A stretch of DNA of 64,000 nt from Sanghuangporus weigelae (Eukaryota > Basidiomycota > Agaricomycetes > Hymenochaetales > Hymenochaetaceae), in assembly GCA_033182465.1 (NCBI GenBank), contig CP137325.1, positions 124,001 through 188,000 on the forward strand, in the 5' to 3' direction. The position numbers and the translations under genes were made by a program. Positions 5,641 through 62,980 of the stretch are shown here, piece by piece. A model generated the notes under the pieces. It had not been told where the DNA came from, searched no databases, and worked only from the letters and a program-made list of their open reading frames with translations. Within the stretch, counting starts at the first letter, position 1. The number at the start of each line of letters is the position of its first letter.

Positions 5641-5649
5641 GCCCAGGAA

Positions 5650-12650: not shown

Positions 12651-12657
12651 TGAGTAA

Positions 12658-19285: not shown

Positions 19286-20210
19286 CTATTTCCGGTGTTT
19301 TTCTTTGAGACACTGGACTTCTTTCATGTGGCTCTTTGCTTCGGTCATGAGGCGATTCCGGTTGGTTTGGACTCGTGAATCTTCAAGTTCCCGTCGCTTG
19401 AGTCTTCTTGTATTTTGATATATAGCTTCAACGTATGGGCTCATTTGAGCCAAGTTGGTCGTTTTTTTCGCTAGGCGACTGCTATAGCTGGTTATTTTAT
19501 TTTATTTTATTTTCCTTCTGAAGTTTTTCAAAGGAGGTCTTTGAGCATCGTTATGTTCTTCTGACTGTATGTCCTGTGAAGCTCATCCAATGCTACAACG
19601 ACCTTGTTCAGGATCCAGAGGGCTTCTATCATCACGGATACAGGTGAAATGTCCGCGATGGCCAATACGTTCCTGGAAAACGTCTCTTCGGTCTTGTCTC
19701 GAATAACTCCTCCAGTGCCGAAACCTTCATTAGATCGAGTCTGATCCTTTCCGTTTCTTCATCTGTGCCTCTGCTTTTTGTTCGAGACTCCTCCAGGTTT
19801 TCCTTCGTCTCTTGAAGATCGGCGGCAACTTCATTCTCGTCGTTCTTTGCCTTGAGAAGATCGATCACGCATGCCCGAAGACGTTCAAACCAGAAGTGCT
19901 TAGTAGCCGGTGTGGTGTACTCCGCGTATAGCTCCTCAACAATCGCGTTCGTCTGATTTAGACAATGTTCTTCGCTCTTGCGTTTGTCAGCTGCGCGGTC
20001 GCTTGTAGTACGGCTCTGCTCGCGAGAAGTATCGGGGACGGAAGCTTTAGAACGACTCGGGAGAACCTGCTCAGCATCTCGGGATCTTCTGCTTTCACGC
20101 TGTTCACGATGGTGTTCTGTGTGTCTTGAGCCAGATGGGGGTTTGATGTCCTGTGCATGATATAGGACCGACGTTCGCAAGGTGTCAAGGAGGTCGGAAA
20201 AATATGTCAC
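19286..20210 (-). pseudogene. Coiled-coil family gene, broken (copy A)
   Basis: Related to the intact genes at 54319-55299 and 61964-62980. The first part (20210 to about 19690) has the same plan: a Ser/Arg-rich head, then DKRKSEEHCLNQTNAIVEEL and a charged helical region. A frameshift near 19690 moves the match to another frame (ETFSRNVLAIADISPV, then IEALWILNKVVVALDELHRT), which ends at a stop near 19540. The C-terminal segment resumes further on (YVEAIYQNTRRLKRRELEDS) to a stop at 19286-19288. The central segment with the GFG.GG motif is missing and no ATG is found at the family start position. The upstream element seen in the intact copies is still visible at 20227-20250. Confidence 0.75.
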
Positions 20211-20559
20211 TTTGCATAAGTAAAAACTTTACGTCATGGGTGACTAGACATTTTGTGAAAGGCAACAAGCACACTTTGCCTTTCTTCTGGACAAATTTGC
20301 TTCAATATCTCCTTTCTCAGATGAAATCGACAAATTGGTGCATTGCGCATATCACAGAACTTGAAATTGGAAAAGCTTGACTGGAATGAAAAAAGTATGG
20401 ACTCGGAAAGATATTTCACAGCTAGTACATCGACTTATGGAAACGTACAAATGGGGAGGACCAATGTTGTAAAAGTATGCGGACGCAGTGGAAGCTGATA
20501 TGCGTGAGCACTTTGAAAAGGCTCAGGAGGCGCCATATGACGAACACATAAATCTAAGA
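20211..20559. other. Gap between broken coiled-coil and F-box genes
   Basis: Includes the family upstream element at 20227-20250 (minus-strand CTAGTCACCCATGACG). No gene. Confidence 0.5.
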
Positions 20560-20645
20560 TCTTGGAAGAATAGTTTGCTAGTCAGAAGAAGCTTCAGGCG
20601 AAGCAACAAGTATTCTGAGGATTACTATTGAACAAAGTCATGAGC
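20560..20645. repeat. Non-coding segment repeated at 61485-61562
   Basis: Read on the minus strand, this piece contains TTCAATAGTAATCCTCAGA, then GCCTGAAGC.TCTTCTGAC and AGC..ACTATTC. The same order occurs on the plus strand at 61485-61562. In both places it lies between the F-box and the coiled-coil gene of the duplicated block. Confidence 0.7.
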
Positions 20646-20712
20646 TTATGTGTACCTGGGCTTCATGAAACATAGTCTAGACTCCGAGTATTCTGACCAA
20701 GCAGAACCGTTG

Positions 20713-22484
20713 TCACTCGGGGGCGACGCCGAGAGGTTTGGATGAAGGATAAATAACGTTCCTCTGTCGTATCGTCCAGTAGCTCATAAGCCAGTGTGCA
20801 TCTAGACTATAAAAGTCTGCTTCTGTTCGCCATCGAACCCGAGTCGGGCTCCACGGCCGCGCGATGATGCCTCCCCCAACGGAGACACCGACGGGGCGTA
20901 TATCATATATAGTGTCAAAGAGGACCGCCTGTTGCAGCTTGTTCAAGCCATGACGATATACAAGGTCTTCTACCGTCAAAGGCAGCGGCCTGGTAATGAC
21001 ATAATGACAATGAAGCAGATTGGAGAGTGCGACAAATCTGCTAGTCTTCAGTTTTGCCATAAAGTCTTGGATCGCGGCATCACCTGTGCCTTCTAAGCGG
21101 ATTGCGGCGCATCCTTGTAGAAAATTTGCATGTTCGCTCAACTCGGTCAGCGCTTGTAGAGCGTCGTTTTTCGTAAGACGAGGAAAGGTTATTCCAAGCA
21201 CATGAAGGTCATTCAATGTGCATATCGCTTTGATGACGTCGATGAACCAGACACTGTTCTGCTCTTCTGGATGCTCATTGAAACTTGACGGATCATGACA
21301 GAACATGAGATCGAAACGTCGAAGGTTCTGATGATGGCCCAGGAACGTTATCAATGAACGTATTGTATCTCGCACATCGAAAGTCGGCGTGGACGGCGAA
21401 CAGAACCCAATTTTAAAATCCCTGGGCTTCGACAATACTTTCCCCTCGCATGGTAAATAGGATAAAGAAGCGACGTGAAGGAGTGTGAGCGACTCAAGCT
21501 CTAAGGACTCGCGAAGAAATCCGCCAAGACCAGGCACGTCGTCAAAACTGGTGGTAACGAGCCTGACTATGTGACGGGGAAGTCCCGTGAAGATGTCAGG
21601 TTGCGGGTCGTTCAGAAAAGGAAACGGTGCATAGACGGCGAGCATCTTGAGAGAAGGTGTAGCAAGAAGCTTGACAAGATGGGGGTCGCGTGTCGAGAGA
21701 AACGCGAGGCGATCAGGGAATACATAGGAGCAAACAGACAACGAGTCATCTATCGATTCGACAACTCGAACTGTGGCACTCAGTCCAGATAGCTGGGGTA
21801 GGTGTAAGGTTCCATTCCACATGCTTGTGAATATTAGCAGGAAATTCGCGTCCTTTGCAGTTTATTACTCACCTTGTTACTCGTAAAGTTTCTAAAGTTG
21901 TCCAACAAACGAGGACCACAGAAGCAATTTCTTTAGGAAATTTGCCACTAATCCATGCGAAGCTGCGGACGTTCTTAAGTCTATTTAATGCACGCAAGAT
22001 GATTCCTTTTTGTATGTAAGCCACGAGAAAAGGACAGAATTATCAGGATATACTCACCCATATCCTTTCTTTTAATGACAAAACCTGCTACAATACTGAG
22101 ATTTCGAACCAATTCAACGGGTGTAGAGTAGCCACCGAGTAAAGGCTTTGTCTTGGCTTATCTGTGGAAGGTTGGTATTGATTTCTTTGCCAGTGCTACA
22201 TGTTCCTTCTTGACCTCATCACCAGTGACAACGGGGATAAAAAATCCGACTCGGAGACGAAGTGTCGCGAACAGGTTAGGTACCGAGATAAAGCATGCGT
22301 GATGAGATGTGCACGAGAAGGACATGAGATCAGTTTTGTCCAGGAAGGCAAAGATGTTTAGCCAGATTTCAATTGGCAGTTGATGCCAAACTGAAAGTTT
22401 CAGCCCAGACCGTACTAAGGACCGTCGTCGTACTCGTCGTATCTTGAGCAGTGATCGAGCACTCATAAGGAGCCGCAGTAACAT
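20713..22484 (-). pseudogene. F-box protein gene with a single internal stop (block 1 copy)
   Basis: Sister of the intact gene at 59611-61348. Exons 22484-22058, 22005-21873 (133 bp) and 21823-20713 give 557 codons in one frame. The F-box is at about residues 34-75 (WHQLPIEIWLNIFAFLDKTD). The tail holds the family segments AAIRLEGTGDAAIQDF, DLVYRHGLNKLQQAV and RWRTEADFYSLDAHWLMSYW. One in-frame TAA at 22158-22160 breaks exon 1, where the sister reads through (LQRFTDPKPLLG). No other lesion was found and all splice sites look sound. Alternatives: recent pseudogene, polymorphic null, or unusual splicing that skips the stop. The 369-residue downstream part could also be made from a later ATG. 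Confidence 0.75.
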
Positions 22485-22678: not shown

Positions 22679-23611
22679 CTAGTAATTAGCCGGTCTCATC
22701 GTACCTCGGCGTAAAGCTGGATATTCTCGTCGAAAGCCGGGAAGAGGTGCGCTCCTCTTGTTTCCACTACCCAAGCCAAACCTTTTAGGCCAGATGCCGC
22801 CGCGTCTGGGTTCACGGTTGTAATTTATATCCCCTCTTCGGCTTCGGCGAGTGCTCGCCCTTCCCTTTCGACCTGCTTCCGCTTCCACTTTCTGACGCAA
22901 TCTGTTCATGCTTTCCATCGATTTTCTTATAACTGCATTTGCACGCTCGACAATCTTTATAATCTCCCTGCTGCTGTACTTTCCTCGCGTTTGCTTCAAC
23001 TCTATAACTCTGGCATAGACTCTCTTCATCTTCTCGAGTTCTTGCCTAGCTCTATTGGTATCTTGGTTTTCAATTGCTCGTTGAAACTCTTCGACATTGA
23101 CGTCAATATCCTTTTTTCGGTCATATATTGTCTTCTCATCTCCAAGGTAGATTTTCCGGACGCTCATTTCTGCCTCGTAAGCATCGGACCAATATTCGAG
23201 CATCTTTGCTATAGTTGCCAATTTGATATAAGGCTTACGATCGAGTATCCTGTAAGAGTCGTCGATAAGCCAGAAGACGGTATCATCTTCAAGTCCGTTT
23301 CTGCGTAAGTGTAGTAATTCATTGATCTGCCTTTTAGCGATTTCATACGATCCGTTGGGATCGTCCCATCCACGGTTTCGCTCAAACAAAAGAGCCGGGA
23401 AGGCCTTACTGAGTTCTAAAAGGCCTTTCCTCAGGTTTTTGCTGTTCGATCTTGCATTATCGCATTCTCTGAAGATTGGCGCGATGAAGTCACGGTCCAC
23501 GTTGACTTTAACATTCTCGAAGTCGGTTCGAATTCTCCTCATCTCGGAAGAGGCGCCATTCTCTTCGTACACTGACTCCCATGAGTTCTGCCTAGTTCGT
23601 GGCCTTGACAT
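22679..23611 (-). CDS. Helical, charged protein of unknown function
   Basis: Single-exon gene of 310 residues with an ATG at 23609-23611. It is rich in Glu, Arg and Lys; residues of about 20-250 are predicted helical or coiled-coil (FRECDNARSNSKNLRKGLLE, RARQELEKMKRVYARVIELK). The C-terminal 65 residues are basic and Arg/Gly-rich (ASTRRSRRGDINYNREPRRG), which could bind nucleic acid. It lies inside the duplicated block of 19.3-26.5 kb but has no partner in the second block. I see no clear alignment with the coiled-coil family nearby. No family recognised. Confidence 0.6.
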   Translation of the reverse strand: MSRPRTRQNSWESVYEENGASSEMRRIRTDFENVKVNVDRDFIAPIFRECDNARSNSKNLRKGLLELSKAFPALLFERNRGWDDPNGSYEIAKRQINELLHLRRNGLEDDTVFWLIDDSYRILDRKPYIKLATIAKMLEYWSDAYEAEMSVRKIYLGDEKTIYDRKKDIDVNVEEFQRAIENQDTNRARQELEKMKRVYARVIELKQTRGKYSSREIIKIVERANAVIRKSMESMNRLRQKVEAEAGRKGRASTRRSRRGDINYNREPRRGGIWPKRFGLGSGNKRSAPLPGFRREYPALRRGTMRPANY

Positions 23612-24994
23612 TTCTGCCGGAACAATAGGGACTGTCGCTGTGCGAGCTCGGGGTGTGAAGACTGAAGCGGGTAAATTATGGATGTGTCAATGTTCTCCTC
23701 CTTCAAATGCATTACACATTTTGCACAAGTTCAAACATTGCATTTCACCTGCAAACTGAACGCGACTTTGTTTAGTGATTCTGAGTCGATATGGAATAAC
23801 GAAAAGCAAACCTATACTTGCAAGGATCTCGTGCGTCCTTGATAACGATTTAGAGAAGGGCAGCGAACCATGCTCAAAGGCACTGCAATGATTTTGCAGG
23901 TATCAGCATTCCAAGCGCAATATTCAGAGCCTATCAGCCTCGAAGTGCAGCCTCAAGGCGGTGGGTAAGCAGAAGAAAAGGCTATGGGCCAACAATTCCC
24001 ACAATTACAAAAGTGGGGCTCACTCTAACAAGCGCCTCTTCACCGGCGCCTTGGCCTTCTTCGTGACTTCAAATGCAGTACATACAGCGATCCCTCCGTT
24101 ATCATTATTTGAACAATCCCCATTTGCCTGCGATGACAGAACAATGCAATCGAGTGCATGAACAGTGGATCTTATCGATCAAAATCGTTATGGTTCACAA
24201 GACCGATCTTGGAATACTTGGTTGGAATGTAGATGCCAGTCCATTACTATTGTGCCCAGGTGAGGTGATAACAACGTGAGCGGCATGTCGATAAGTCCTT
24301 TACACCCTTTGAGGAGTCTCCTTGTTTTGTGAAATCAGTGGCGAGCGGCGAACACGCGTGCGCGAACCAGAACCGTGATGATGGTACCATTAGACCTGTG
24401 ATTTGTGGCACTGCCATAGCTCGTTTCCTGACTACACCTGATTTGAGTCTTACCCTTTGACTCGCAAACGCGTTTTCGAGGTATTAGGGAGAGAGGCGCC
24501 TGCTTTATACGATCGCAGGCTGGGCTGAGAAACGTAGGCGCAATTTAATTGAAGTGGAGGTGAGTGTAATCCAGTGCGCGGTTAGGGCTTTCCTGACTCT
24601 GACATCCTTTTGTTTTCTGCCTACTTAAGCACGGAGTTTTCACCCGGTCCCTGCTTTCATTTTGCTCCCGTCTGCCTGGCCAGTCAGTTGAGCCCCTTGG
24701 CTTCAGTGTCAATCTACTTCCGTCGATCAAGCCAGCTGCTTCGAAGCGCACGAAAATCCCGAGTACCCTGTGCCGGTCGCAGCGGTCCCCATTTCACCAT
24801 TTACTTCCTGTTCTAGGCTTCTGCATGAACAGCTCGTTCTGAAAACGACTAGTTCTTCCTCTCTTCACATTTGGACAATAGTCGCGAAAAGCACCCCACT
24901 GCTGCGGCCTCCACAGCACCTGTGGTATAAACGCCCGCAAGACAAAAGCACATTCTAACCTAGCTTTCGCCCTCTTTTACAAAGGATTCCACCA
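23612..24994. other. Intergenic between divergent genes
   Basis: About 1.4 kb upstream of both the helical protein and the DUF6699 gene. No gene recognised. Confidence 0.5.
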
Positions 24995-26482
24995 ATGTAT
25001 GGGTCGTCGAGGACGGCGACGTACCCATTCGCATTTCCACATTATCCGGCACCGGAACCATTTCCGGCACGCAAACCGCCTGAGAGCCACGCGGTGAACA
25101 CGCGACAATCAGTTTCACCGATTGCATTACGATCAAAGGCAAGGGCTGGCTCAGACGACGCGGGTTCGCGCCTTGATACCGCTTCCTCGGGCCTAAGCCT
25201 AAGGGACAGCAATTACAATAAGACGTATAAAACAAATGCGACCATGGGAGCCTCTACCCGTCTACGTTCTCAATCCCACTCTCAATCTCATTCGCAAAGT
25301 CGGTCTCGATCCCCGCATCCGCAAGCAGAGATGAACCCGTACTCGTATCCGTCCCGGCAATCCGCATCATCTCATCGCAGAACTGCCAGCTCGCATGTGC
25401 CTAGTGCTGGCAGTTTTTCGTTTCCTGCTGGAAATGGCGGAACGTTCCACTACGTCCCTCATTCGGGAAGTCGCGCACAAGCAACGTATGCGCCGGGTCG
25501 ACCGTACGCATCTGAACCTACTCCGGAATGGCCGTTATCATCTAGACGAGCGCCCTACGGGCCTGTGCCACCGCCTGGTCCATGGGCACAGTCTTCTTCA
25601 TCGAGATACCCCATACCACCGCCTTCCTCCTTCCCAGCACAAGGGTTTATTCCGCCTAGACCACCTAGCCCGGCAAGTCACTATCCGTTTGCAAATCATG
25701 GGAGCTCAGGTCGTAGTAATGGTGTCTATGCCGAACGTGCCTCCGGTAGCAGACACACCCGCAGTCGAGACCAAAGATCAACGGATGATTATGATATAAC
25801 CCCTCCTCGTACGTCATATTTCAGTAATACATTTGTTCGTAGACTGACGCTGAGGCAATTGCCTATAGCGCCGTATTCGGCTGTAACGTCTTCGCAAGCA
25901 GATAGTACCGTATCGGATCCACTCATCCATCCTGCACTCGGATGGTGGCCAGACCAACGACGTCCTGCTCTTTATTGGGACCTTTCCTCCTCCTCCTCCC
26001 GTCCGCGATACACCAAACGCGAATTCGACGCGCAAGAACTGACATCGTCGCCCTTCACGCCGCCGCTCTCGCGCATGCGACTCGTCCTCGACCCGCACGC
26101 GCAGTGGAAGTTCGACTTCTCTGCCCCGCGCGGCGAGCGGTACATCACGCTCGCCAGCCTGCTCAAGGACATCGCGAGCCTGATGCGCGCGCCCAATATG
26201 GTTCCGCACGCGTACTGGGTGCGGGCGAGCACGAGCAAGAAGGAAGCTATTGTTAGAGCGATGCTGAGACGCACGGGCGGCACGTTGCCCATCCCTCCGC
26301 CTCATCGCCGACCGAAGTCGCGAGGCCAGATTATGGAGGAGGCGGTCGTCGAGGGTGCGCCGAACGGGTTTACGAAGTTGCTGGTTGTTGATTTGCTTTG
26401 TGACGACGTCATGTTTGCTGGGATGGAATTTCACAAGGAGCCCGATGAGTGGGTTCTACGGACGATGAGGCGGTATTCTTAG
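24995..26482 (+). CDS. DUF6699 domain protein (block 1 copy)
   Basis: Basidiomycete protein of unknown function. Residues 1-270 are low-complexity (Ser, Pro, Arg, Tyr), with an SQSHSQ-type run near residues 90-110. The C-terminal 200 residues form the conserved domain: HPALGWWPDQRRPALYWDLS, a FTPPLSRMRLVLD strand, a KKEAIVRAMLRR helix and a LLVVDLLCDDVMFAGMEFHK end. The frame is open throughout, but 25809-25868 (GTACGT...CTATAG, 60 bp, no stop) is very likely an intron: the paralogue at 56649-58487 has a phase-1 intron at the same point. The likely coding sequence is therefore 24995-25808 joined to 25869-26482, 475 residues. Confidence 0.8.
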   Translation: MYGSSRTATYPFAFPHYPAPEPFPARKPPESHAVNTRQSVSPIALRSKARAGSDDAGSRLDTASSGLSLRDSNYNKTYKTNATMGASTRLRSQSHSQSHSQSRSRSPHPQAEMNPYSYPSRQSASSHRRTASSHVPSAGSFSFPAGNGGTFHYVPHSGSRAQATYAPGRPYASEPTPEWPLSSRRAPYGPVPPPGPWAQSSSSRYPIPPPSSFPAQGFIPPRPPSPASHYPFANHGSSGRSNGVYAERASGSRHTRSRDQRSTDDYDITPPRTSYFSNTFVRRLTLRQLPIAPYSAVTSSQADSTVSDPLIHPALGWWPDQRRPALYWDLSSSSSRPRYTKREFDAQELTSSPFTPPLSRMRLVLDPHAQWKFDFSAPRGERYITLASLLKDIASLMRAPNMVPHAYWVRASTSKKEAIVRAMLRRTGGTLPIPPPHRRPKSRGQIMEEAVVEGAPNGFTKLLVVDLLCDDVMFAGMEFHKEPDEWVLRTMRRYS

Positions 26483-28680
26483 AATCATTTCATTACATTC
26501 TTTTTCCTCAAGCGACTATTGCGTCCGTGCTTTCGCCTTTTTCCTTTTGACTATCTTACGTTCTTGTTTCGTTACTGCACTTTTTGTGACTGACGCTGGT
26601 ACACTTGCATCCACTTTAAATCTCGTTATTTACGTATTATTTATAATTAGTTTCACTTCCGTATATATCATCGATCTATCACCTTACATGAATCTAGACT
26701 CCCTCTTTACTTACTTTGCCTGGGTTTTACGTCGTATCATTAATCGTACTTTGTCTATAATGTCTTAGTGATCACTAGTGGATATAATCACGTTTGATTA
26801 TGCATTATAAACTTGTTGAGCTTTGACCTGAAACAGTTTGGTTCATTCAATGCGTCAAGACTAGCAAAACTCATTCTATTTTGCGGTCATAACACATCTG
26901 TTTGCTAGCTATGTAGCTCTTGTCGTGTATTCAAACATCTATGTTACGAGACAGTATGACGTCTCGTTGCATAGTCAGTCCGAATATCAAACACTTGATG
27001 AGTATGGCCTTCAGTCTAAAATAGCATTGAAGCCTCGATTGGCCGGTTGGTCGATTGTACCCTTTTCAGAAACGTAAGGTATTCTGCCGATGAGAACGAA
27101 CAAGATTCGTAGTCTAGACTCGGACGTGACACTGGCAGTCTTCCCCCGTCCGTCGACAGGTACAGTAGTCAGTGAGCCGGAATCACCGTGACGGAGATGT
27201 CGGGTTGGATATCTCCGCATACTACGCGGTGTCCGAGTCATAGTGCCTGAGAAACGGAAGTAGATGCATATAGCTTGACTTGATGTATTCGGGATCCGTG
27301 AAACGCGGTTTATGCTGACAAGCACTGTAGTAAGCGCCGAATGACGATTTCAGTGGACGATAGTCCATCGGGGAATTGAGGGTGTGGGGATGCAATTATA
27401 GAGGCCGACGAGGGGATGATCACCGTATTGTATTGGATCGGGGGTGAGTTCCCTCAATTGAAGATTGAATGGATTGGTGAGGCAGGATCGGGATAACGCG
27501 AAGGTTTTCGTCCCATCGATTAGAGATTCAAGAGGGCCAAGTTGTCCAGAGTTCAGCTCGATATGAATGACGATTTCAAGAGGAAGAGGAGATCATGAGC
27601 TGTCACATTGGTAAGAGTAGCAATTCACAGGCCGTAAATGAAACTTTCTCAGAGTCGTCATTCGTCCCGTGAGACCCGAGAGCGAGAGAAAGTGTGATGT
27701 GGATAAATCTGGTCCGGAAAGCGATGCAGGCGGGGTTTAACGGTGAGGATTAGGAAAGACGGAGCGGAATCAGAGAAAGATGGAAGATGGGTTGGAAGAC
27801 GCCGAAAGGGCACTTGAGTGTACTGTAGATCGGAGCACAACTGCCGGGGGTTGTATTTGAATATAAAGAAGGAATTGAGTTTGGAAAGAAGGACAGAATA
27901 AAGTTCAAGTGAGTGATTCTGAGGGCTAAAGTGCCTTGTTCGCAAAGTTGCGATGTTTACAAATCGAAGAATAATTGCGTGAAAAAATGAGAATTTATTG
28001 CATGTGGTGGTTGGAGTGAAGGAGACGCGAGATGAGTTAGCCGAGGTCAGTCCGACTTGAACTGAACGCTGATGAGAGTGATTGACCCCCGCGCAAGAGA
28101 CGGGCACCGCTGAGCAGGAACGAATACTGTAATCGATCCAGAAGGGCCGCTGCTGCTGAGCGATGGATCTGATGATGAGAATTGCCTCGAGGCTTCCACG
28201 TTTTACTGACGCAGTTACTACCAGTACTACTACGTTCTCAGTAGCCTTTTCTACTACGTACGTATACAACCACCTACTGATATTGCTTGACTCTTGACTG
28301 CCCTCTCTCGACTCTGGCATGGCTCTGTCCTTTTCAAGTCCCACCCGATAACTGCTTTGTACTTACACTTACGTATCCGAGGACTAAAGGGGAACTTCAT
28401 CGTGGACGAGGAGCTTCTATTAATTGTCTCCTGCTTGACTCTTCCCGTAGTCCCCAGCGCATGACTACTCCAGACTCGTACTCTTGACAAGTTGAGCCGC
28501 CCCTTCATTCTCCTGTCTGCATCCGCCGCCCATCTTACTGTCTTCTCTTACTACTTAGGAGTATCACTTTTCGCGCTATCTTCTCGAGTTTAGCCAACAA
28601 CCCGGAGCAATACAATACATTACCACAACTCGCCATCCGAGCATTCAGATAAAAGCCAAGGCGCGGGGTAAGACGGCATC
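26483..28680. other. Long intergenic / promoter region
   Basis: 2.2 kb between two plus-strand genes. The last 400 bp are C/T-rich on the plus strand and probably form the promoter and leader of the next gene. A 228-codon open frame on the minus strand (27658-28344) has no family signal and was not accepted. Confidence 0.5.
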
Positions 28681-52066: not shown

Positions 52067-53596
52067 ATGAGTATGTACGATGATATGCCCGGTCTACTCA
52101 ACATCGGCTCGCCTCCAGCGCTCGCAAGGGGCATGAGTGTCCACCCGAGTGCGGGCGGCACGCCATGGCGCGGTCCCACAGCATCTATGGCGCCCACGCC
52201 CGCGCCCGTCGTAGCAGGCGGGTTCGGTGCAGGCGCACCGATGGCGGGCCAGCAAAAACATAACCGCCATCATCATCATCATCACCATCACTACCGGAAA
52301 TCGATGCAGAGAGCGCACTCGACGCCTGGGCGGACGAACCTCGAGTTCCCGCCCTCCCCGACGTTCCATCCTCAATCCCAGCCTCCCGGACATCTGACGA
52401 TCAACCCTATGCTCGCACCGCCCGAAGCGCAGGCGCATGCCCAGTATCCCTCGCCGGGTGGGGGGTTCGACCCGTTCTCGATTCCGGCGGCTGCGTACGA
52501 TGCGGCTGCTGCACAAGGTGGAGGAGGCGCCGTGCCTCCGGGTTTCTCCCCTCATTACCCCTGGCCGATGGCTATGGGCGTAGGGTCCCCACCACCACCG
52601 CCTCTAGCTATGCCCTCGCCCTACCACACGACGACTCCGCACGCGCACCAGCAAGATCCATTTGACGGCGACGAGTACGACGATGACTTGCCTTCGCCTG
52701 GTGGATTCGGTGGATTCGGTGGAGGAGGAGGAAGAGGAGGAGGAGGAGGAGGAGGGGGATTCGGCGCAGGAGGTGCTTGGGATTCATGGGACTTCGGTTT
52801 TCGCACTCCCGGATCGGGGTCGAGCGCTGGTACGGGCCCTTCGCCGAGTGCGTCTGTCATCAATGGCTTTGCAGCTGGTCCGCGATCGAGCTACAAGAGA
52901 CCCGAGGACTGGAGAGAGGGGTTCAGCATGTCGAGACCGAACCCGCTCACGCGCGTCTTCTCGCTTGGGTTAGGCGGTGAGTTCTCTTTTCCTTTCTTTC
53001 GTTCCGTCTCTCATTACCCGTTCTCACTGCATTCTACGGGTACTCAATTCAATTGCATTCTCTGTCTATCACATGATGGGCCAGGCTTCTCCGGCAGACC
53101 GACTCTGAACAAGCTTCTCGACGTGAAACAAGCGCTGTGCTCCTGGGACGTGCGAAGACCCCCAGAAGCGTTCCACGTCCTCCCATCAGGCAAGCAACTC
53201 GACTATCTCCAGCTCAATGAGGGCGCGATGAACCCCGAGCCCGTGCGGATGAAAATCACGTACCCGAAATTACCCTGGACGATACACGTCGACGCGCGGT
53301 CCGCGGGCGGTCAGAGTCAGACGTGCATCGTCACCATCGGGCACCTCCTCAGCACGATTCACGGGGAGCTGATGCGGCCTGTGTATTCGCGGGATTTCTG
53401 GAACGATATTCTGAGCGAGGAGGACAGGAAGAAGATCCATGATGCGTGGGCGGCGCGGTGTAATGGCGATCATGTGGTCGCGCAGCAGGGGATCAAGAGG
53501 GTGGATTTCTTGTTGGATAGGTACGTCTTTGAGGGTCTGAGACGCGTGGATGATGGGTGGGAGATGAAATTGAAGTCGGGGAGAAAGTTGTTATGA
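52067..53596 (+). CDS. DUF6699 domain protein, His- and Gly-rich
   Basis: The frame is open from 52067 to 53596, but 52977-53084 (GTGAGT...GCCAG, 108 bp, pyrimidine-rich, no stop) is almost surely an intron. Joined exons give 473 residues. The N-terminal half is low-complexity, with a run of eight His near residue 69, Pro-rich parts and a Gly-rich stretch near residues 215-240. The C-terminal 170 residues are the DUF6699 domain (TLNKLLDVKQALCSWDVRRP, MKITYPKLPWTIHVDA, VTIGHLLSTIHGELMRPVYS, RVDFLLDRYVFEGLRRVDDG). It is more distant from the two other DUF6699 proteins here than they are from each other. Function unknown. Confidence 0.85.
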   Translation: MSMYDDMPGLLNIGSPPALARGMSVHPSAGGTPWRGPTASMAPTPAPVVAGGFGAGAPMAGQQKHNRHHHHHHHHYRKSMQRAHSTPGRTNLEFPPSPTFHPQSQPPGHLTINPMLAPPEAQAHAQYPSPGGGFDPFSIPAAAYDAAAAQGGGGAVPPGFSPHYPWPMAMGVGSPPPPPLAMPSPYHTTTPHAHQQDPFDGDEYDDDLPSPGGFGGFGGGGGRGGGGGGGGFGAGGAWDSWDFGFRTPGSGSSAGTGPSPSASVINGFAAGPRSSYKRPEDWREGFSMSRPNPLTRVFSLGLGGEFSFPFFRSVSHYPFSLHSTGTQFNCILCLSHDGPGFSGRPTLNKLLDVKQALCSWDVRRPPEAFHVLPSGKQLDYLQLNEGAMNPEPVRMKITYPKLPWTIHVDARSAGGQSQTCIVTIGHLLSTIHGELMRPVYSRDFWNDILSEEDRKKIHDAWAARCNGDHVVAQQGIKRVDFLLDRYVFEGLRRVDDGWEMKLKSGRKLL

Positions 53597-54318
53597 AAGT
53601 GAAGTGAAGTGAAGTGGATTATGGATCTATTAATTTTCTTTTCTGTTTATCTGGTTTTTTGTTTTGTACTCATTCTGTTCGGTCGCTCGCAACACCTCTC
53701 CATGTATGTCCGATCGTGTACTCCCGCAATGTACTCCGCAATGTTTTCATAATGGATTAAATATATATATATATATATACCTTTCATCTTCCTTGCGGCA
53801 TCAGTATCTACTATACTCTTCATTTCTTAGTTTCTGCACTGATCACGCTGTAGCGCCGAACGAGACTCATTTTGGGTATTCTGTCCGTCTTCGATTCGAT
53901 CTGAGCGCGGACCGAGATCGACTCATAATGGGAAAGGATCTCCTTCAGATGCTGCCGATACACGAGGATCAGTTGTCGAGAGTAAACATGCAATTGAAAT
54001 TATATTTCGTTAGCTAAACCTTTGGGTTGGCTTAGACTTGAATAGAATAGAATAGAATGCAATTCGTCTTTGTCATGCAGAAATTATGTAATTAAATGTA
54101 AAATGCCATTTGGAGCCTTGGGTTCCGTTTGACATTACATTCCCTTCGCTTGGGAGAAAAATGCAAACAACCGAGCAAACTGTCCAATAGAACAAAACAG
54201 TGTACGTACTGTCTTTCGCAAAGTGTCTTGCCATCCGTAACCTATAAGATTGCCAAGGGAAAAGGCTTTCTTACCCCCTTCTTGCCTGACATCCAGTGAA
54301 CGACCTCAATACTGGAAC
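53597..54318. other. Intergenic with microsatellites
   Basis: Includes an (AT)n tract at about 53761-53780 and a short AATAG repeat near 54040-54058. It also holds the upstream element of the next gene at 54211-54242. Confidence 0.6.
54211..54242 (+). promoter_or_regulatory. Conserved upstream element of the coiled-coil family
   Basis: TCTTTCGCAAAGTGTCTTGC followed by CATCCGTAACC. The matching sequence precedes the copy at 61964 (61857-61885: TCTTTTGCAATTCTCTTGCC, then ACCCATAACG) and the broken copy (20227-20250, minus strand). About 80-110 bp before the start codon. Confidence 0.5.
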
Positions 54319-55299
54319 ATGTTTTACAGTTCGGGAGATGCTTCGGCTAGCTCAGGGCGTACGGGACGTGTCAAGCGCCAGGGACACAATAATCACAACA
54401 GCGCTCCAAGTACTACCAGCAACGAGCGAGTTGTTACGGATCGTTCAAAGGCACACACCCCCAATGCTCCTTCCGAGCGTGTCGAACTCAGCCATACTAC
54501 TGCGGTTCATATTCCTGACAAACGCAAGGAAGAGGAGCTTTTGGATGAGACGAAATCGATTGCCGATGAGCTGTACATGGAATACATCGTTCCACATACT
54601 AAGTATCACTGCTTGGTCCGAATTCGGGCAGAAGCTATTGGATGTCTCAAAGCCCAGCAGGACGCCGAAAGTTCCTCGCGTTATGTGGAGAAGATGAAGA
54701 AATCGACGGAGGCCAAATCCAAAGATCTGAAGAAAGCGCAAGATCGTAAGGTCAAGGACGAAATTGCATGGTATGAATCCACCAAGCGTCTTCGCAAAGC
54801 ACACCAAGAAGTCGTCGAGCAGAGGGAAAGGGGCTTCGGCGCTGGCGGAAATGGTCGAGGCAAGTCGGAAGATGATGATATAGACGCGCTTTCCGTCAGA
54901 GTATTCCTCGCCTTGACCAAATCTTCTATATTCGATTCAATTGAGGTTCTCTCGATCCTGAATCACGCCGTTGGGGCTTTAGAAAAACTGGCCGCGACAT
55001 ACAGCCACGAGGACATATCGGAACTCAAGAACGAAACTGAGAAACTCATAAAGGAGCACCGCCGATTACAGCGACAAGATCAGTCAAACGGCAAACAAGA
55101 CATACATCGTTTAGAACAGCATCATTCAGAAGTCGAAAAGTTAAATCAAAGAGCAAAAACGATTAGACACCAGGAACTTAAAGATTCTCGCAGGCGAATT
55201 GAAAGATATAATTTCATAGCTGTATTGGATAGGCAAATGACGGAATTGGAAGATCTCGAGAAAAGTTTACCGGAAAACAAAATAGATTTATTCCCTTAA
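54319..55299 (+). CDS. Coiled-coil family protein, unknown function (copy B)
   Basis: Single exon of 326 residues; the ATG at 54319 matches the start of the paralogue (both follow a TGGAAC context). A Ser/Arg-rich head of about 70 residues is followed by helical segments: LLDETKSIADELYMEYIVPH, a long charged coil ending AHQEVVEQRERGFGAGGNGR, then IDALSVRVFLALTKSSIFDS, VLSILNHAVGALEKLAATYS, and a final coil (YNFIAVLDRQMTELEDLEKS). The GFG.GG motif and the order of helices are conserved in the paralogue at 61964-62980. No signal peptide, membrane segment or enzyme motif; likely intracellular and oligomeric. No known family recognised. Confidence 0.75.
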   Translation: MFYSSGDASASSGRTGRVKRQGHNNHNSAPSTTSNERVVTDRSKAHTPNAPSERVELSHTTAVHIPDKRKEEELLDETKSIADELYMEYIVPHTKYHCLVRIRAEAIGCLKAQQDAESSSRYVEKMKKSTEAKSKDLKKAQDRKVKDEIAWYESTKRLRKAHQEVVEQRERGFGAGGNGRGKSEDDDIDALSVRVFLALTKSSIFDSIEVLSILNHAVGALEKLAATYSHEDISELKNETEKLIKEHRRLQRQDQSNGKQDIHRLEQHHSEVEKLNQRAKTIRHQELKDSRRRIERYNFIAVLDRQMTELEDLEKSLPENKIDLFP

Positions 55300-55496
55300 T
55301 CCGAGGGAGCTGGATATATCATGACGTGGAGACACTTGGCGGTTATCAGTAGTGCTATGCTATAACGTACTGTAGGTTGACAATTTGTCTACATTTCGAT
55401 TATTTCAATTATTCTACCAACCATACGTCTCATCGACGTGGAATTCGGGTTGTGTTCATCTGTCTTCGCCAGAACAACGATGCTAGACAACCTTAT
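55300..55496. other. Short intergenic stretch
   Basis: No feature recognised. Confidence 0.4.
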
Positions 55497-55835
55497 GAAC
55501 GCCACCCAAAGTAATCAGCAATCCTGTAACTCTGTCAGTGCGCATCATAAGCAATGGCGATGAGAGCATCAGGGAACATACCAATGCTGAGCAAATCGAC
55601 AATAAGACCAGCCTCTCACTCGCCGAAAAAGTACGTCCCATTGACACAGTCCCCAAAGCACTCCCTGAAATTGTTTATGAACAAAATAAGTATGCAAACT
55701 TCAGCAGAGTACTTATAAGGCAGGTGTGTCGTGAATTGTACCAGAAATTTGTCCAGTGTCATAGCCGAAATTGGTACCACCAATCAAAGCAACGAAGATG
55801 AGGATATCACGCAGACGAGCCTATATGTTCACCAT
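55497..55835 (-). pseudogene. MFS sugar transporter relic (N-terminal part)
   Basis: On the minus strand: ILIFVALIGGTNFGYDTGQI (about 55743-55805), then after an intron-like gap FRECFGDCVNGTYF, a stop, GLIVDLLSIGMF, and finally IADYFGWRS. These follow the same order as helix 1 to loop 2-3 in the two intact transporters (GGFIFGYDTGQIS, FGDCDPVTG, GLIVALLSIGTLFGA, LADIFGRRN). Stops and frame changes are present and the rest of the protein is missing. Confidence 0.7.
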
Positions 55836-56648
55836 TTCTTAAAGCAACTCAGCAGCAGACAGACGAGGCACAATATATGGAATCTCTAGCCCCTTGCACT
55901 GAACTATATATGCGCTGAGACTTAATAACTTAATGAGGACCTAGTCGGAAACGATGATGCTTGCGGACCAGGAGCTTTGGATCACACCGTCAAGTGTCTG
56001 ATCTTGCCAGCAACGCTGTGGGGGCGCTATCGTAGCTGATGCTGAAACTTGTCAGTGACTGAGACGAGATTATCAGCACGTCTCTATGGGGTTGACGACC
56101 TGCTTTGTCGAGTAATGCAGCCTATGATGTAGATCGTCGCATCGACGAAGGACCGTCAAGGTTCGAAGTGCATTGAACGTTCCAGCTCCATAATAAATGT
56201 GCGCATTATAAACAAATGGCTCACAGCCCGCTCGCAGCCAGAGCCGTTACGTGCAGCGATTATGGCAAGCAAATTTGCTGAGAATGAGTTCCAGGGAGAC
56301 AGCTTCTCCAAAAGAGCAATAATCACAAGTCAAAATGAATCAAATATCGCCCGATCTGAGATAAAGTCAGTGCCTGTCCTTGAGCATTGGAATCACACGC
56401 ACCATTGTACACTTGAGAATGTCATTTGACTTACCTATGTAGGCGGGGACGATCAGGATACTAATAATCACAAACAGTAATTCAATGAACAATCAACATC
56501 AATTATCGAACACTACTAAAGTCCAGGAATGGAATAATACACATCAAATCTCGCAATACCCAAGATTCGAATGCATCCTTTCTTTTGAAACATCAGCAAT
56601 TGCACGCAACGCGACGAGAAAAGAAACACACCATATGTATATATCCGT
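55836..56648. other. Intergenic, no gene seen
   Basis: May contain more decayed transporter DNA but no further motif could be placed. Confidence 0.4.
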
Positions 56649-58487
56649 CTACGCATGACGCTTAATCGTATGCAACACCCACTCATCAGGACTCTTATAC
56701 AACTCCAATCCGGCAAACATCACATCCTTACACAACAGATCAATAACAAGCAAGTTCGTAGACCCATTCCTTGCTCCTTCCAGGACCTCTTCCTCGAGTA
56801 TCTGGACGCGTGACAGCGGAGGGGCGTCCGGTGGCTGAACACGAAGAGAACGGCCGGTGCGTTTCAGCATAGCCTTAACAATAGCCTCCTTCTTACTCGA
56901 ACTGGCACGCGCCCAGAAGACATGCGGGACCTTACCAGGCTCACGCATCAGGTTGGCGATGCTCCGAAGGAGACTCGACACTGTGAAGTTTCCGCCCGGC
57001 GCAACCGATACGTCGAATTTCCAATCCGCGTGCGGGTCAAGTATGATTCGCACACTTGAAAGCGGTGGCGTGAAGGCCGAGGTAGCCAAGTCTTCAGCAG
57101 TAAGGTCTCGTCTCCTGTACAGAGGCGGAAGCGACCGTGAAAGGTCCCAGTAAAGCTTAGGAGTGCGTCTGCCGGGCCAGAAAAAGAGCACCTTATGAAT
57201 GAACGGATCAGTCGCTGTGCGACTACCTCTCGAGGGAGCAGTAGATGTGGAGACACCTGTATTCAGCTAGATTAGTGCCATGGAATCCATATGTTTAATT
57301 ACGTATGGCGTACGAGAGCTTGAATATAAAGAACTTGATGATCCATGTCCCCGCGTATGTCTAGAAGAGCATCCGCTACGACTCTGAGAGCCATAATAGG
57401 TAGACGAATGACGGCTTCCAGACCTTCTAGATGAATGCGTTCTCGCAGAGGAATCAATCGACGGCGGCACTTCGAAGCTTCGTCCATAAGCGGACATCCA
57501 TTCATCCAGAATGTCAGAAGGCGGACCTGGTACAGGGAAGGGACCAGAAGTGTTTATATTAAAGTCCTGGAATGTCCCGATAAACCGATCCGGACTTTCC
57601 CCATCGCTGTCATATGAGTCAGAGTAGTCTTCTGTATCGTCAGTATAGGTAGGCCACAGCGCAGGAGGACACCAATGAGGAATATAATAGCCTACATAAC
57701 CGGGAAACGATGCCGGTGGCGAATATGGACGCGGAGGGATAAACGGGGGCTCGTCCGCATAAGTGCGATACGAAGGGGGTGGAGAGATCGAAGACGGACG
57801 AGGCGGAATGACCGGAGGTTCATACGCATAGCTAGAATAGAAAGACGGGGGAGGCGGGATCACTGGCGTATTACCTGCCGACACAAAGGTATAGCTGCCG
57901 TAGGGTGTCATCGATGAAGCCGAAGGCGGGCGAGGGGGAATCACCGGAGTAAAATTCCTCGATACACGCGAGCCTGAGAGGCTACGACGGGATGGTATCG
58001 ACGAGATCGAAGGCGAACCAGTAGGAATCACTGGGGCAAAATTCCTCGACAAATGTGAATCTGCATGGCTGCGAGAGGAGGGTATTGGGCGGGGAGAGAT
58101 CACCGGTGAATCATTCCTCGACACATGCGAACCTGTGTAGCTACGATGGAACGACGTGCGCGGAGTAACTACAACGGCTCCGCTGCTTGGGGCACGCGAA
58201 ACGCTACGGCTAACGTGCGATGGAGATAGAAATGACGACGCCAAGGACGGAGCTGGTGCACGCGGAACAATAACAGTCCTATCGCTTCTGGAGCTGCTGA
58301 TGCTGCTGCTACTACTGAAGCTGCCCCTGGACGTAACGCTGCTTCGGCTGCTGACGACGCTTCCGTCACCGCTGCTGAGAGTGCGCATTGTAGCGGTGCT
58401 CACACCACTGCCGACGCTAGGAGCATACGAACTTGCACGAGTGCGGCGCGATGACGCCGATGACAGCACTGAAGACATGCGATCCAT
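56649..58487 (-). CDS. DUF6699 domain protein (block 2 copy)
   Basis: Exons 58487-57314 and 57256-56649 (57-bp intron, GTACGC...TACAG) give 593 residues. The long N-terminal part is Ser/Arg-rich near the start, then carries Pro-rich tandem units of the type PVIPPRP / PVIPTG separated by SHVSRN or SRRS (about residues 100-270). The C-terminal domain matches the copy at 24995-26482 closely: KLYWDLS, FTPPLSSVRIILDPHADWKF, SSKKEAIVKAMLKRTGRSL, LLVIDLLCKDVMFAGLELYK. Both genes share the intron position and phase and both lie next to an F-box gene. Function unknown. Confidence 0.82.
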
Positions 58488-59610
58488 ACGAATACTGAGT
58501 TAGAATCACAAGCAAGAGCGTAGCACTATTGACTTCCAGGCTACTCCGAATGCCGCCGCAGTGTCTGCTCGTTCTTGCCGATATTTATATCTGATTTCGC
58601 TCGCGAGTATCTCTTCGCGGTAGGCCCCAAGCACGGAATTCGCAGCACTCGCGCTGAGCCTCAGCTTCATGATGGTCGTCATGGCAAGTCGTTGGACTCT
58701 GATATCTTTGCACTCCCTCGTAGGGTTGAGAGCTAGGCCAGATAGCATACTGGCACGAGTGGGTCCATTTGCAACTGCAAGGCCCAATACATTACACCTA
58801 ATCAGGAAGATTCATAGAGCAACGGGCCAACCGTAGACAACGATACTCAACCCGTTCACTGCGCAACGCTATTGTCAGTGAGGCGATGGCCCTGCTTCTG
58901 CAGCATACTGCTATTGTTGCCAGAATTTCATGGCATGTCTAAGGGTGCTAAGGCCGAGGCGAGAGACTTTGCAAAAAAAGGAGAGGTGTTCTGTGCAACG
59001 GAAGCTAGCACAGAAGGCCCATTTGATTGTGCCCACGAGAAGTGCGATGCGACTGACCGGACTGTGTGGTTGGCCAGGAAGAATCCGCCGTTGGAATGAA
59101 GCATTCGGGAATAAACCTGATCAAGGAAGTGAGCACGCGCGAAGCAATAACAACTGAGTACCGAATTTTCACCTCAGAATCGGAGTTTAGTCGATGTTAA
59201 GAGGTGGAGTGCATACCAATGCACGCTGGCCTATGAGTCTCAGGATGCTATGAAATATTAGATTGTGCCCTCCCCCCCGCGCCGGCGTAAAACTCATCTG
59301 TTGGTACCGATGATGAACATCACTGATGCCTTCCCGAGATTGTTACATGCGTAATGGAGCTAATAGAGAAGCTCTCCATGCAAATTCGGGCGTGCCCCAG
59401 CAATGATTTCAATAACAATAACAGAGTCACACATCAAGAGGAGTCTTGTATCGTGCAGCATAGAATAAATTCAATTCGCGCCGCGCAAAAGAGTGATGAC
59501 GCTCAAGTAAGGGCACTAGCCATATTACATAATTATGAGTTAAAAAAACAACCATTCTGCTCCGGGTCGCTTGAACGTAACTTGACTCTGCCCATCGATA
59601 AAGAACAACG
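58488..59610. other. Divergent promoter region between DUF6699 and F-box genes
   Basis: 1.1 kb. Several short frames, none convincing. Confidence 0.5.
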
Positions 59611-61348
59611 ATGATGAAAACTCTTGCGATTATTCTCTCCTTTTCGAAGAGGAGCTGCCGCCGCCGTCGCTGTAGGAAAATGGCTTCTCTAGGACAGAAA
59701 CTCTGGTATCAACTGCCGATTGAACTCTGGCTCAGAATCTTCACTCTTCTTGACAAAACGGATCTCATGTCGCTCTCGCGCACGTCTCACACTATGCGTT
59801 CGATCTCAATAGCTAGTCTTTTCTCTTCGATTCGTCTCCGAGTTGGACATTATACACTTGATGAGATCACCGAAAAGAACGAGGAGAAGCATCTAGCATT
59901 AGCAAAGAAATCGATCTCGACGCTTCAGCGATTCACAGACCCGAAGCCGCTGCTAGGTGTCTCCTACCCGCCAAATGAACTGGTACAAGACCTTCGTATC
60001 GTGTCCGGTGTCAACATCAAAGACAAACATAAGAGTGAGTGCTTTCCGATCTTGCTTCTGTTCTCGTTACTTACACGTTACACGAATGGAAGGAATTTTG
60101 TTGCTGGCAATGGAAAGGTTGAAGAATCTTCGTAATCTTACTTGGACTGATGGAGTTTTCCCCGGAGACGTTGCCTCTGCAGTCGCTGCTTCTTGCGCAT
60201 CATTGGATACTCTACGTATTTCAAGGTTTGTGGGATCACCAAAAGCCTTGATGCTGCACTCATATCTACTTAGTAGTTTCGTGGATCATCCATTGCCTCA
60301 GCTATCCGATCCCGGAGCACGACTTAGGGACATCCAATTCATGGACGACTGCACGACTCCTTGCGTGAACAATCGTTACCTGCGTATCCTTTTTCACAAT
60401 TCAAATGGTTTGTACCATGCAAAGCTTCTCACTCAACGTAATCAGAACTCCATCGGAACGCTCACTATTTATGGTCCAGACCCGAGTCCAGGCAATCCGC
60501 AATTGCATGATCTCTTTAATGGACCTAATCATCTCGTCAACCTGGTCCTTACCGGTCCTGGCAATTTGCCTGGCCTCTGTGAGCTTCTTCGACAATCTCC
60601 AGCAGTGGAATCATTGGCCCTCCTCGATATAGATTCCTTATCATCTTTACCACTCGAAGGGGATGTCTTACCGAATCTCACAGATTTCAAGGTCTACTTC
60701 GATATTTCGTTGCAGCACCATCCGACCTCGACCATTTCAGGACCGTTGATCAGTTTTGTACGCATTCATGAAAGGCTTCGTCGCTTTGATATGTCATTCT
60801 GCGCAGTATTACAATTCGTCCCGGCAGCAGCAAAAGAGGACAATACTTGGTTCATGGAGCTTCTTAAAGTGATATGCACGTTGGAGCACCTACAGGCACT
60901 GGGTATAACCTTTCCCGGACTTGAAGCAAGCGAGGTCTCACAAGCATTCAATATGCTGAGTGAACACGCACATTCGTTGGAAACTTGCAATGCTGTCCGA
61001 ATAGAAGGGACACGTAATGTGGCAGTCGATGTCATTACGGCGAAATTTCGCAGCTGCAAGTTCCTTGCGCTCTCCGATATAATTCATTGTAATTGTCTCT
61101 GCATCAATGTGCGGCCGCCGCTTTTGACAGTAGAAGACCTTGTCTATCGTCATGGTTTAACAGAGCTGGAACAGACGATCCTCTTCGGCGTTGTATACGA
61201 TATACGCCCCCTCGACATTTCAGTTGAGAAAAAATTCATCGGGCAGCGCTGGGACCCGGACCGAGTCCGATGGAGGACAGAAGCGGACTTCTGCAGTCTA
61301 GATGCGCACTGGTTAATGAGCTATCGAACGATACGTCGGTCGATTTAA
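59611..61348 (+). CDS. F-box protein, intact (block 2 copy)
   Basis: Predicted SCF adaptor and the only undamaged member of its family here. Likely exons 59611-60034, 60093-60225 (133 bp) and 60274-61348; 543 residues. The second intron (48 bp, GTTTGT...TTAG) is a multiple of three without a stop, but the sister gene at 20713-22484 has an intron at the same point and phase. The F-box is at about residues 33-75 (WYQLPIELWLRIFTLLDKTD, LMSLSRTSH). Following segments resemble degenerate leucine-rich repeats (LKNLRNLTWTDGVFP, HLVNLVLTGPGNLPGL, ESLALLDIDSLSSLPL). The end is DLVYRHGLTELEQTI and RWRTEADFCSLDAHWLMSYR. Unlike copies 1 and 3 near the left side it lacks an acidic tail. Target unknown. 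Confidence 0.8.
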
Positions 61349-61484
61349 CTTTGCTCTTCCTGGCCCCACACCTATTGGTGTCGGTCCCCATTAACTACTG
61401 TTCTGCTCAAGTCGAATAGTCGGAGCTTAAACCATGTTCTGTGAAAGACAAAAGAAGATTTTTGTAGCCTGGATGCACTTCAGA

Positions 61485-61562
61485 TCACTAGTTCGTTCAA
61501 TAGTAATCCTCAGATCATGATTTTCCTCCGCCTGAAGCCTCTTCTGACCAGCGGACTATTCA
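61485..61562. repeat. Non-coding segment repeated at 20560-20645
   Basis: Plus strand: TTCAATAGTAATCCTCAGAT, then GCCTGAAGCCTCTTCTGACC and AGCGGACTATTC. Inverted partner of 20560-20645; same position between F-box and coiled-coil genes. Confidence 0.7.
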
Positions 61563-61856
61563 CATAGAATCGTAGACCTTTATGGCTATCACACTCTGTT
61601 TCGAAGGCCGGGTCTTTTCGATACTCTTCCAGCAAACGAGTCTATAACACATTTCCACGTCGGTCTTCACTGTCTGCCATATACCATAGGACGATATATC
61701 AACCATAAATTACTTTTTGAGGTCCATTACAGACCAGAAAATGCTATCCAGAGCCTCTTTAGTATGTACAATGCACTAATTTGCTTTCTTCCGAGAGGAA
61801 AGAAGGCACTGAAGCAAACATGTCCAGCAAAATGAACAAAAGCGTTGCCTAGCATC

Positions 61857-61885
61857 TTTTGCAATTCTCTTGCCACCCATAACGC
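61857..61885 (+). promoter_or_regulatory. Conserved upstream element of the coiled-coil family
   Basis: TCTTTTGCAATTCTCTTGCC, then ACCCATAACG, 80-107 bp before the ATG at 61964; partner of 54211-54242. Confidence 0.5.
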
Positions 61886-61963
61886 AAACGATCGCATAAA
61901 AAAAAGGGCTTATCTACTCTTCATCCTTGGTATCTTGTGAATTTATTCACTCCTGGCTGGAAC

Positions 61964-62980
61964 ATGGCCAGTGCCGGACATCCTTCGCCAAACTCAAAGC
62001 GTACAGAACGCGGCCTGCGGCGTCGGCCATCCCGCGTAAGCTTCACTCAAGATGCTAAGGGTCCCAATGATGTTAATGGCGGCAGGCAAGACCTTCCAAG
62101 TCGTCGGAAGGTAGTAGTACAAACTATTTCTCCTTCCGACGACGCCCCGAGCAGCCATACTACATCCAGTCCTACGGCTGACAAACCCGATGACGAACTT
62201 CTCAAGAAGGCGAAAGGGTTTATTGATGAGCTATATCAGCAAATCATAGCTCTAGACAATAAGTATAGCTGCTTCGAGTACCATCGGGAAAAAATGGTCT
62301 TTTATCTCGCAGTACAACAGAAACATGAATATGTTTCCCGTCATATAAAAGATCTGAATAGATCAAAGGGCAGAGGGGCAACCCAAGCAGAAGATGAGGC
62401 CATATCCAGAAAGTTACAGAAAGCGAAGGCGGAAATTGCAAGGGTAGACCTTGAAGTAAATCAAGCCATCGAAGACCTTCAACGGGCACATCGTGAACTC
62501 GTCAAGCAGAAAGAGAAGGGCTTCGGTGTTGGCGGGATTATTAATGACAAGCCAAACGTCGATATTGAGGCGTTTTCCGAGAACATACTCAAGATCCTGT
62601 CTATATGTGCTATACACAAAATGATAGACGTTCTCTCATACCTGAACAAAGCCGTCGAAGCACTGCATAAACTTTGCAATACATATAACGGGGAAGAAAT
62701 TTCGAAGCTCAAAGAGGAATACAATCAACTCCTAAAGGATCGCAAACGACTACAACAGCGACAGCAGTCGGCCAGCGAACAAGCCTCCACCGCGACCACC
62801 AAAAGCACAGCAAACCCAGACACATATCATTCAAATGTCGTAAAGTTATATCAAAGGGCGGAAAATATGAGATATCAGGAAAATGCGAATTCCCAGTTGC
62901 GAATCTACAGGTATAATCTCACTGCCAAATTGGATCGCCAGATGGAGAAAACTGAGCGTCTCAGGAGGGAGGAAACTTGA
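61964..62980 (+). CDS. Coiled-coil family protein, unknown function (copy C)
   Basis: Single exon, 338 residues from the ATG at 61964. An upstream in-frame GTG at 61937 is not needed. The plan is as in copy B: a Ser/Arg/Pro-rich head, DDELLKKAKGFIDELYQQII, a long charged coil ending LQRAHRELVKQKEKGFGVGG, IEAFSENILKILSICAIHKM, IDVLSYLNKAVEALHKLCNT, a Gln/Ala/Thr linker, and a last helix (YRYNLTAKLDRQMEKTERLR). It follows the intact F-box gene in the same direction, the same order as the broken copies in block 1. Probably intracellular; no family recognised and no function assigned. Confidence 0.75.
   Translation: MASAGHPSPNSKRTERGLRRRPSRVSFTQDAKGPNDVNGGRQDLPSRRKVVVQTISPSDDAPSSHTTSSPTADKPDDELLKKAKGFIDELYQQIIALDNKYSCFEYHREKMVFYLAVQQKHEYVSRHIKDLNRSKGRGATQAEDEAISRKLQKAKAEIARVDLEVNQAIEDLQRAHRELVKQKEKGFGVGGIINDKPNVDIEAFSENILKILSICAIHKMIDVLSYLNKAVEALHKLCNTYNGEEISKLKEEYNQLLKDRKRLQQRQQSASEQASTATTKSTANPDTYHSNVVKLYQRAENMRYQENANSQLRIYRYNLTAKLDRQMEKTERLRREET

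Follow-up and report, generated by a model that had tools for sequence, protein, structure and literature searches.

The stretch of DNA analyzed here, a window of 64,000 nucleotides from the basidiomycete Sanghuangporus weigelae (assembly GCA_033182465.1, contig CP137325.1, called C8 in the following), covers C8:124001-188000 in a genome of 33.87 Mb and 13 contigs, and contains two copies of a block in which a gene with a DUF6699 domain, an F-box gene and a gene for a coiled-coil protein lie side by side. Block A occupies 19.3-26.5 kb on the minus strand and block B 56.6-63.0 kb on the plus strand (positions without the contig name are those of the window), and the gene order is alike in both: the DUF6699 gene is divergent from the F-box gene, which is followed by the coiled-coil gene. 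A third copy, block C, lies outside the window at C8:216839-239447. Since the start of C8 looks telomeric (CCCTAA-type repeats), the three blocks are placed approximately 0.14-0.24 Mb from a chromosome end. All comparisons were made within this one genome, whose gene families would be in keeping with an agaricomycete, and gene models were drawn by eye, with the F-box introns of block B taken from exon coordinates. The history of the blocks is very probably one of segmental duplication in a birth-and-death cluster near the chromosome end; the duplication itself is ordinary, and the coiled-coil family is its unusual part.

In block B, the DUF6699 gene (56649-58487, minus strand) consists of two exons around a 57-nt intron (57257-57313) and carries the Pfam domain PF20415 at E 5.1e-12. 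The F-box gene (59611-61348, plus strand; exons 59611-60034, 60093-60225 and 60277-61348) contains an F-box-like domain (E 1.4e-7) and is separated by an interval at 61349-61963 (plus strand) from the coiled-coil gene (61964-62980, plus strand), a single exon of 338 aa without a Pfam family over the cut-off. In block A, the DUF6699 gene (24995-26482, plus strand; open reading frame (ORF) 24959-26482; PF20415 at E 6e-11) is open throughout, the F-box gene (20713-22484, minus strand, three exons) carries one in-frame stop at approximately 22158-22160, and beyond a non-coding interval (20158-20712, minus strand) lies a coiled-coil pseudogene (19286-20157, minus strand; weak protein match at C8:143531-143737) that is interrupted by stops in each of the three frames and has indels relative to B that break the frame. 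The first-pass annotation, made from the letters of the window, had likewise described block A as having a broken coiled-coil gene and an F-box gene with one stop. Between the DUF6699 and F-box genes, block A alone holds a 308-aa ORF (22682-23605, minus strand), which has no Pfam family over the cut-off and whose sole match in the genome is itself; the idea that it is a diverged coiled-coil copy was rejected (hhalign probability 0.1%).

An inverted duplication of the whole block had been proposed in the same annotation, with self-alignment of the window on opposite strands as its check, and blastn comparison of the window with itself recovered three A-B segments, all inverted and collinear: 20568-21249 to 61561-60848 (68.0%, E 5e-61), 22177-22388 to 59915-59704 (71.4%, E 8e-21) and 26048-26483 to 57080-56648 (68.8%, E 4e-43). 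Together with the gene order and orientation, the F-box introns and the similar, if saturated, synonymous divergence (dS) of two genes, these matches bear the proposal out. Both F-box introns sit at corresponding places in A and B, in phases 1 and 2 in each block; the claim that paired genes share intron positions and phases therefore stands for the F-box gene and fails for DUF6699, for which no shared intron was found between the by-eye models, as the intron is needed in B and the frame of A is open. A shared non-coding segment between the F-box and coiled-coil genes, which had also been claimed, was recovered over the whole length of the interval (534 aligned columns, 61% identity), with a local alignment score of 86 vs. 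at most 28 in 100 shuffles. The values of dS between A and B are 1.68 (interval 1.31-2.67) for the F-box gene, 1.81 (1.21-2.93) for the C-terminal 200 columns of DUF6699 and 3.08 for full-length DUF6699; the A-B duplication is old. In the DUF6699 tree, which took in 19 of 23 hits after four partial ones were dropped, A, B, C and one gene on contig C9 form a clade with 100% support, and in the F-box tree (nine sequences, some of them fragments) A groups with B and C at 79%.

Three points weigh against a common origin of the whole block. Synonymous sites between A and B are saturated; within the DUF6699 clade, the gene of A is joined by the C9 gene (44% support) and does not stand out as nearest to B and C; and local alignment of the DUF6699-to-F-box interval and of both outer flanks did not exceed shuffled sequences, so that alignment outside coding exons is confined to one interval. 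The failure of these other non-coding parts to align is expected at a dS of approximately 1.7, and the retained F-box-to-coiled-coil interval therefore looks constrained. The block B interval was found at five genomic places, every one beside a coiled-coil copy. Two candidates for its content were rejected, namely an RNA gene (Rfam gave no match for window 56000-64000 at E up to 1) and an extra coding exon (judged by eye only, none of the frames was open in A and B alike).

Block C is an inverted match to B at C8:180114-189040. The matching part of B within the window is 56114-64000 (plus strand), and the homology extends to C8:189040, 1040 bases beyond the window end; one end of it lies past the DUF6699 gene and the other within the tail of an HMG-box gene adjoining B (HMG_box, E 4.7e-10), in pieces mostly 79-89% identical (one 84-bp piece reaches 95%). 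The block contains a DUF6699 gene with one stop, one open F-box gene, what remains of another F-box end, three coiled-coil copies, of which C1 and C2 are open and C3 carries a single in-frame TGA, and two HMG tails. Both tails end at the same B coordinate (approximately C8:189040), are without the HMG box and have indels that disrupt the frame, and beside B a candidate intron would connect the tail to the HMG-box ORF (two-ORF model); B therefore looks like the source and C like the copy. Block C is much younger than the A-B duplication, with B-C dS of 0.096 for the F-box gene, 0.146 for DUF6699 and about 0.2 for the coiled-coil gene, and non-coding divergence of 0.097-0.137. Identity between C8:180114-183179 and C8:236338-239447 is patchy, reaching 97-99% at window 57.8-58.3 kb (DUF6699 exon 1) next to patches of 79-87%, which suggests conversion tracts or local constraint. 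HMG-box matches were seen at C8:79509, 191224, 209179 and 251650, i.e., four in the first 0.26 Mb out of 19 genome-wide.

Within C lies a putative Ngaro/DIRS-like retrotransposon (C8:227552-233973). It has split direct repeats, one pair of 140 bp and one of 210 bp, the two members of each pair being identical, and it matches a tyrosine recombinase weakly (E 1.4e-4). No target-site duplication was seen where it is inserted, and the tandem copy shows the site without the insertion. Elements of the Ngaro type have been reported in Agaricomycotina (PMC3783388). This insertion also bears on a different account of block C, in which it would be the other parental allele of B, misplaced during assembly. 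The nuclei of one mushroom may differ by approximately 10-14% at neutral sites, so the observed divergence would allow such a reading; we nevertheless regard it as very improbable, as the homology is bounded on both sides instead of running into the neighbours of B, and C has its own tandem copies, the Ngaro-like insertion and truncated HMG tails.

As expected of segmental duplications, adjacent genes are kept in order and relative orientation in A, B and, with rearrangement, C, and non-coding homology is present between A and B in one interval and between B and C in intergenic stretches too. As to the age of the genes within a block, the A-B values of dS are similar but saturated, with the A coiled-coil gene broken, and the B-C values range from 0.096 to about 0.2. 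Very probably, an ancestral DUF6699 / F-box / coiled-coil block underwent an old duplication into the inverted paralogues A and B, and a later inverted copy of B plus the tail of the HMG-box gene gave rise to C, in which the coiled-coil part multiplied and gene conversion mixed its copies in part. Such a history resembles F-box gene clusters evolving by birth and death, in which copies arise in tandem or inverted, pseudogenes lie next to intact genes and some copies are mosaic; it differs from them in that the F-box copies of B and C are constrained while the neighbouring coiled-coil gene diversifies.

The F-box domain scores over the Pfam cut-off (24.3 bits) in B (31.6 bits), C (33.0) and A (28.6, from a six-frame genome search), and DUF6699 over its curated cut-off (24.1 bits) in B (46.5), A (43.1) and C (44.5). 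The ratio of non-synonymous to synonymous divergence (omega, dN/dS) between B and C is 0.32 for the F-box gene and 0.29 for DUF6699, and with A as third sequence the codon site model with positive selection (M2a) gained nothing over the nearly neutral one (M1a) for either gene (twice the log-likelihood difference, 2dlnL, of 0.0); both proteins are under purifying selection. By domain score the A, B and C proteins belong to DUF6699; they differ from the rest in forming a clade of their own, whose N-terminal part is long and of low complexity. Altogether, 23 DUF6699 hits were found in the genome, with 10 of them on C8, which makes up 6.6% of its length (P 9e-7); when A, B and C are counted once, 8 of 21 remain on C8 (P 4e-5). 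This clustering falls in the first 0.63 Mb of the contig. DUF6699 was named nowhere in the open-licence papers searched, and a profile search against solved structures gave a best E of 0.23. For exon 3 of the F-box gene, the AlphaFold model is of low confidence (mean predicted local distance difference test, pLDDT, of 46.8) and Foldseek returned no match with an E of 0.001 or lower. F-box-like hits number at least 99 in the genome (150 of 185 candidates scored), while 210 F-box genes are reported for Flammulina filiformis (PMC7567395). A direct tandem pair at window 5477-7408 / 12507-14465 (70.5% identical) overlaps F-box relatives.

The further suggestion of the annotation, that the linked conservation of three families may also reflect a functional link, found little support in this genome. 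Blocks A, B and C derive from one ancestral block, and the trio is therefore a single observation; relatives of its genes occur apart, and each block decays in different genes. The strong form of this idea is that the three genes are a functional module (e.g., an SCF (Skp1-Cullin-F-box) receptor with a coiled-coil cofactor and a DUF6699 regulator) that was selected and duplicated together. It would agree with the order and orientation kept in A, B and, rearranged, in C, as well as with an F-box-to-coiled-coil interval that is still alignable at a dS of approximately 1.7, and it is nonetheless unlikely in the light of how the genes are lost and where they occur. Decay proceeds gene by gene, since A keeps an open DUF6699 gene beside broken F-box and coiled-coil genes, and C keeps the F-box gene and two of three coiled-coil genes with a stop in DUF6699. 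F-box relatives at approximately 89, 118, 130 and 137 kb of C8 and once on contig C6 have no coiled-coil hit or DUF6699 gene of the A/B/C type adjoining (the nearest coiled-coil hit to the 137-kb copy is block A's own, approximately 6 kb off); a broken F-box gene at 215 kb, at the edge of block C and approximately 3 kb from the C3 coiled-coil copy, was left out of this count. The contig of the C9 DUF6699 relative is without a coiled-coil hit or an F-box hit of this subfamily, and in A the unrelated 308-aa ORF sits between the DUF6699 and F-box genes. An extra coiled-coil gene, W54 (54319-55299, plus strand), is likewise found apart: with the F-box protein of B as query, tblastn against window 50000-56600 gave nothing at E up to 10. 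Upstream of W54 lies a DUF6699 ORF of a different subfamily (51974-53596, plus strand; Pfam E 8.8e-26), outside the A/B/C clade; with the domain clustered on C8, a DUF6699 neighbour is common in this region.

The coiled-coil family comprises six loci (genome search, matches kept at E up to 0.01), all on C8 and in or beside these blocks: the A pseudogene, B, W54 and the three copies of block C. W54 has an open frame and 39% identity to the B protein, and the sequence just before the coiled-coil start looks similar upstream of it too (by eye). No Pfam family over the cut-off was found for the proteins of four copies, the best hit of a profile search against solved structures had an E of 0.85 (a chain named HALC4_135), and among 317 pattern matches in IMG/VR 0 were confirmed as relatives. 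In the AlphaFold model (mean pLDDT 64.8), the N-terminal 73 residues are of low confidence and long helices are predicted after them.

In these genes the frame appears mostly kept while the amino acids change roughly as fast as flanking non-coding DNA, or faster. No stops are present in B, C1 and C2, compared with approximately four expected if change were neutral (probability of finding none, 0.03 in C1 and 0.02 in C2), and indels come in multiples of three in 5/5 cases for B-C2, 4/4 for B-C3 and 1/1 for C2-C3; for B-C2, a pair chosen by the author, the flanks give 3/24 (Fisher P 0.0005). Between B and C2, dN is 0.165 (0.132-0.206) vs. a non-coding divergence of 0.120 (0.103-0.139). Site models, run on four sequences with a purpose-written codon likelihood program, gave an overall omega of 1.1-1.2 and preferred a class of approximately 18-29% of codons with omega 3.6-5.4. 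As columns at or near gaps were progressively removed, M2a exceeded M1a by a 2dlnL of 29.4 (319 codons), 23.1 (295) and 21.6 (242, strict); the values were 21.6-25.4 under four topologies, 11.2 without C3, and 5.95 to 14.8 for three segments tested apart with two trees each. All 37 of 37 null simulations without positive selection stayed at or below 4.94, and three sets of flanking non-coding pseudo-codons gave 0.01-2.9. We conclude that the family likely, though not certainly, undergoes amino-acid diversification.

A fair number of observations pull the other way. Pairwise omega (NG86) is mostly below 1, with 0.65 for B-C1, 0.81 for B-C2, 0.70 for B-C3, 0.76 for C1-C2 and 0.62 for C1-C3, and exceeds it only for C2-C3 (1.26, interval 0.89-1.94); the B-C2 intervals of dN and non-coding divergence overlap slightly; C3 has its in-frame TGA; and indels involving C1 are less clean (3/5 in threes for B-C1, 4/6 for C1-C2 and 4/6 for C1-C3). 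The site tests rest on four sequences only, and one of the six segment values (5.95) is just under 5.99. C1 combines B-like with C2/C3-like sites in a mosaic (35 runs over 114 sites vs. a shuffled mean of 51.8, P 0.0004), and as the models assume one tree, the signal may be inflated. The non-coding controls are less powerful, being shorter (104-179 triplets) and including one set that gave an identical result in three frames. Coiled-coil dS (approximately 0.2) is above that of the F-box gene (approximately 0.1), so there is no single clean clock, and the low-confidence coiled-coil model, like that of the F-box protein, had no Foldseek match with E at most 0.001. On such grounds the copies could be duplicates that decay as constraint on them is relaxed, with gene conversion and uneven substitution producing the signal of the site models: mean omega is near 1, pairwise values lie mostly at 0.6-0.8, C3 has a stop, C1 is mosaic and the A copy is broken. 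We consider this explanation rather doubtful, given the stop-free B, C1 and C2, the open frame of W54, the B-C2 and B-C3 indels in threes, the lack of any such signal in flanking controls and null simulations, and an omega of 0.60 (0.42-0.81) between W54 and B, which shows long-term constraint.

Diversification within a kept frame is the reading we carry forward, and a block of known history offers a natural contrast for it, with two genes constrained and a third, without a matched family, changing fast. Judging from its domain, the F-box protein is most likely the receptor by which an SCF ubiquitin ligase takes up its substrates, and would as such bind Skp1. The coiled-coil protein may act inside the cell as partner, target or competitor of a quickly changing counterpart, and a part as partner or target in a molecular contest would best explain why its frame and upstream interval are kept while residues change in several copies beside a constrained receptor. 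The F-box and coiled-coil genes would then travel together as neighbours with a conserved interval, and not as a three-gene machine. These functional proposals, read from sequence features, are tentative as a set, while the best explanation as a whole is probable. A more specific version, in which the coiled-coil genes are a new, narrow family in an arms race (self/non-self recognition, defence against mobile elements or viruses, or meiotic drive), multiplied with a constrained F-box receptor acting on or through it, is improbable at present.

The Spok spore killers are multi-copy, fast-changing genes, and the coiled-coil family resembles such fungal conflict families by this pattern only. If it were itself a selfish or conflict gene (a spore-killer-like driver, an allorecognition gene or an anti-parasite factor), it might have driven the spread of the block, as its multiple copies in one locus cluster, its mosaic copies, the missing Pfam family and the signs of diversifying selection could suggest. 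F-box relatives have, however, also multiplied with no coiled-coil gene nearby, and we judge a driving role unlikely. No title on the DUF6699 / F-box / coiled-coil trio was found among open-licence papers, in searches none of which named the whole trio. The many F-box genes of this genome otherwise give no lead; the contrast between the constrained genes and their fast neighbour points to one family in which conflict or recognition could be tested.

Apart from the blocks, the window contains a direct tandem pair at 45069-46972 / 48977-50855 with sugar-transporter matches, the two copies being 68% identical.

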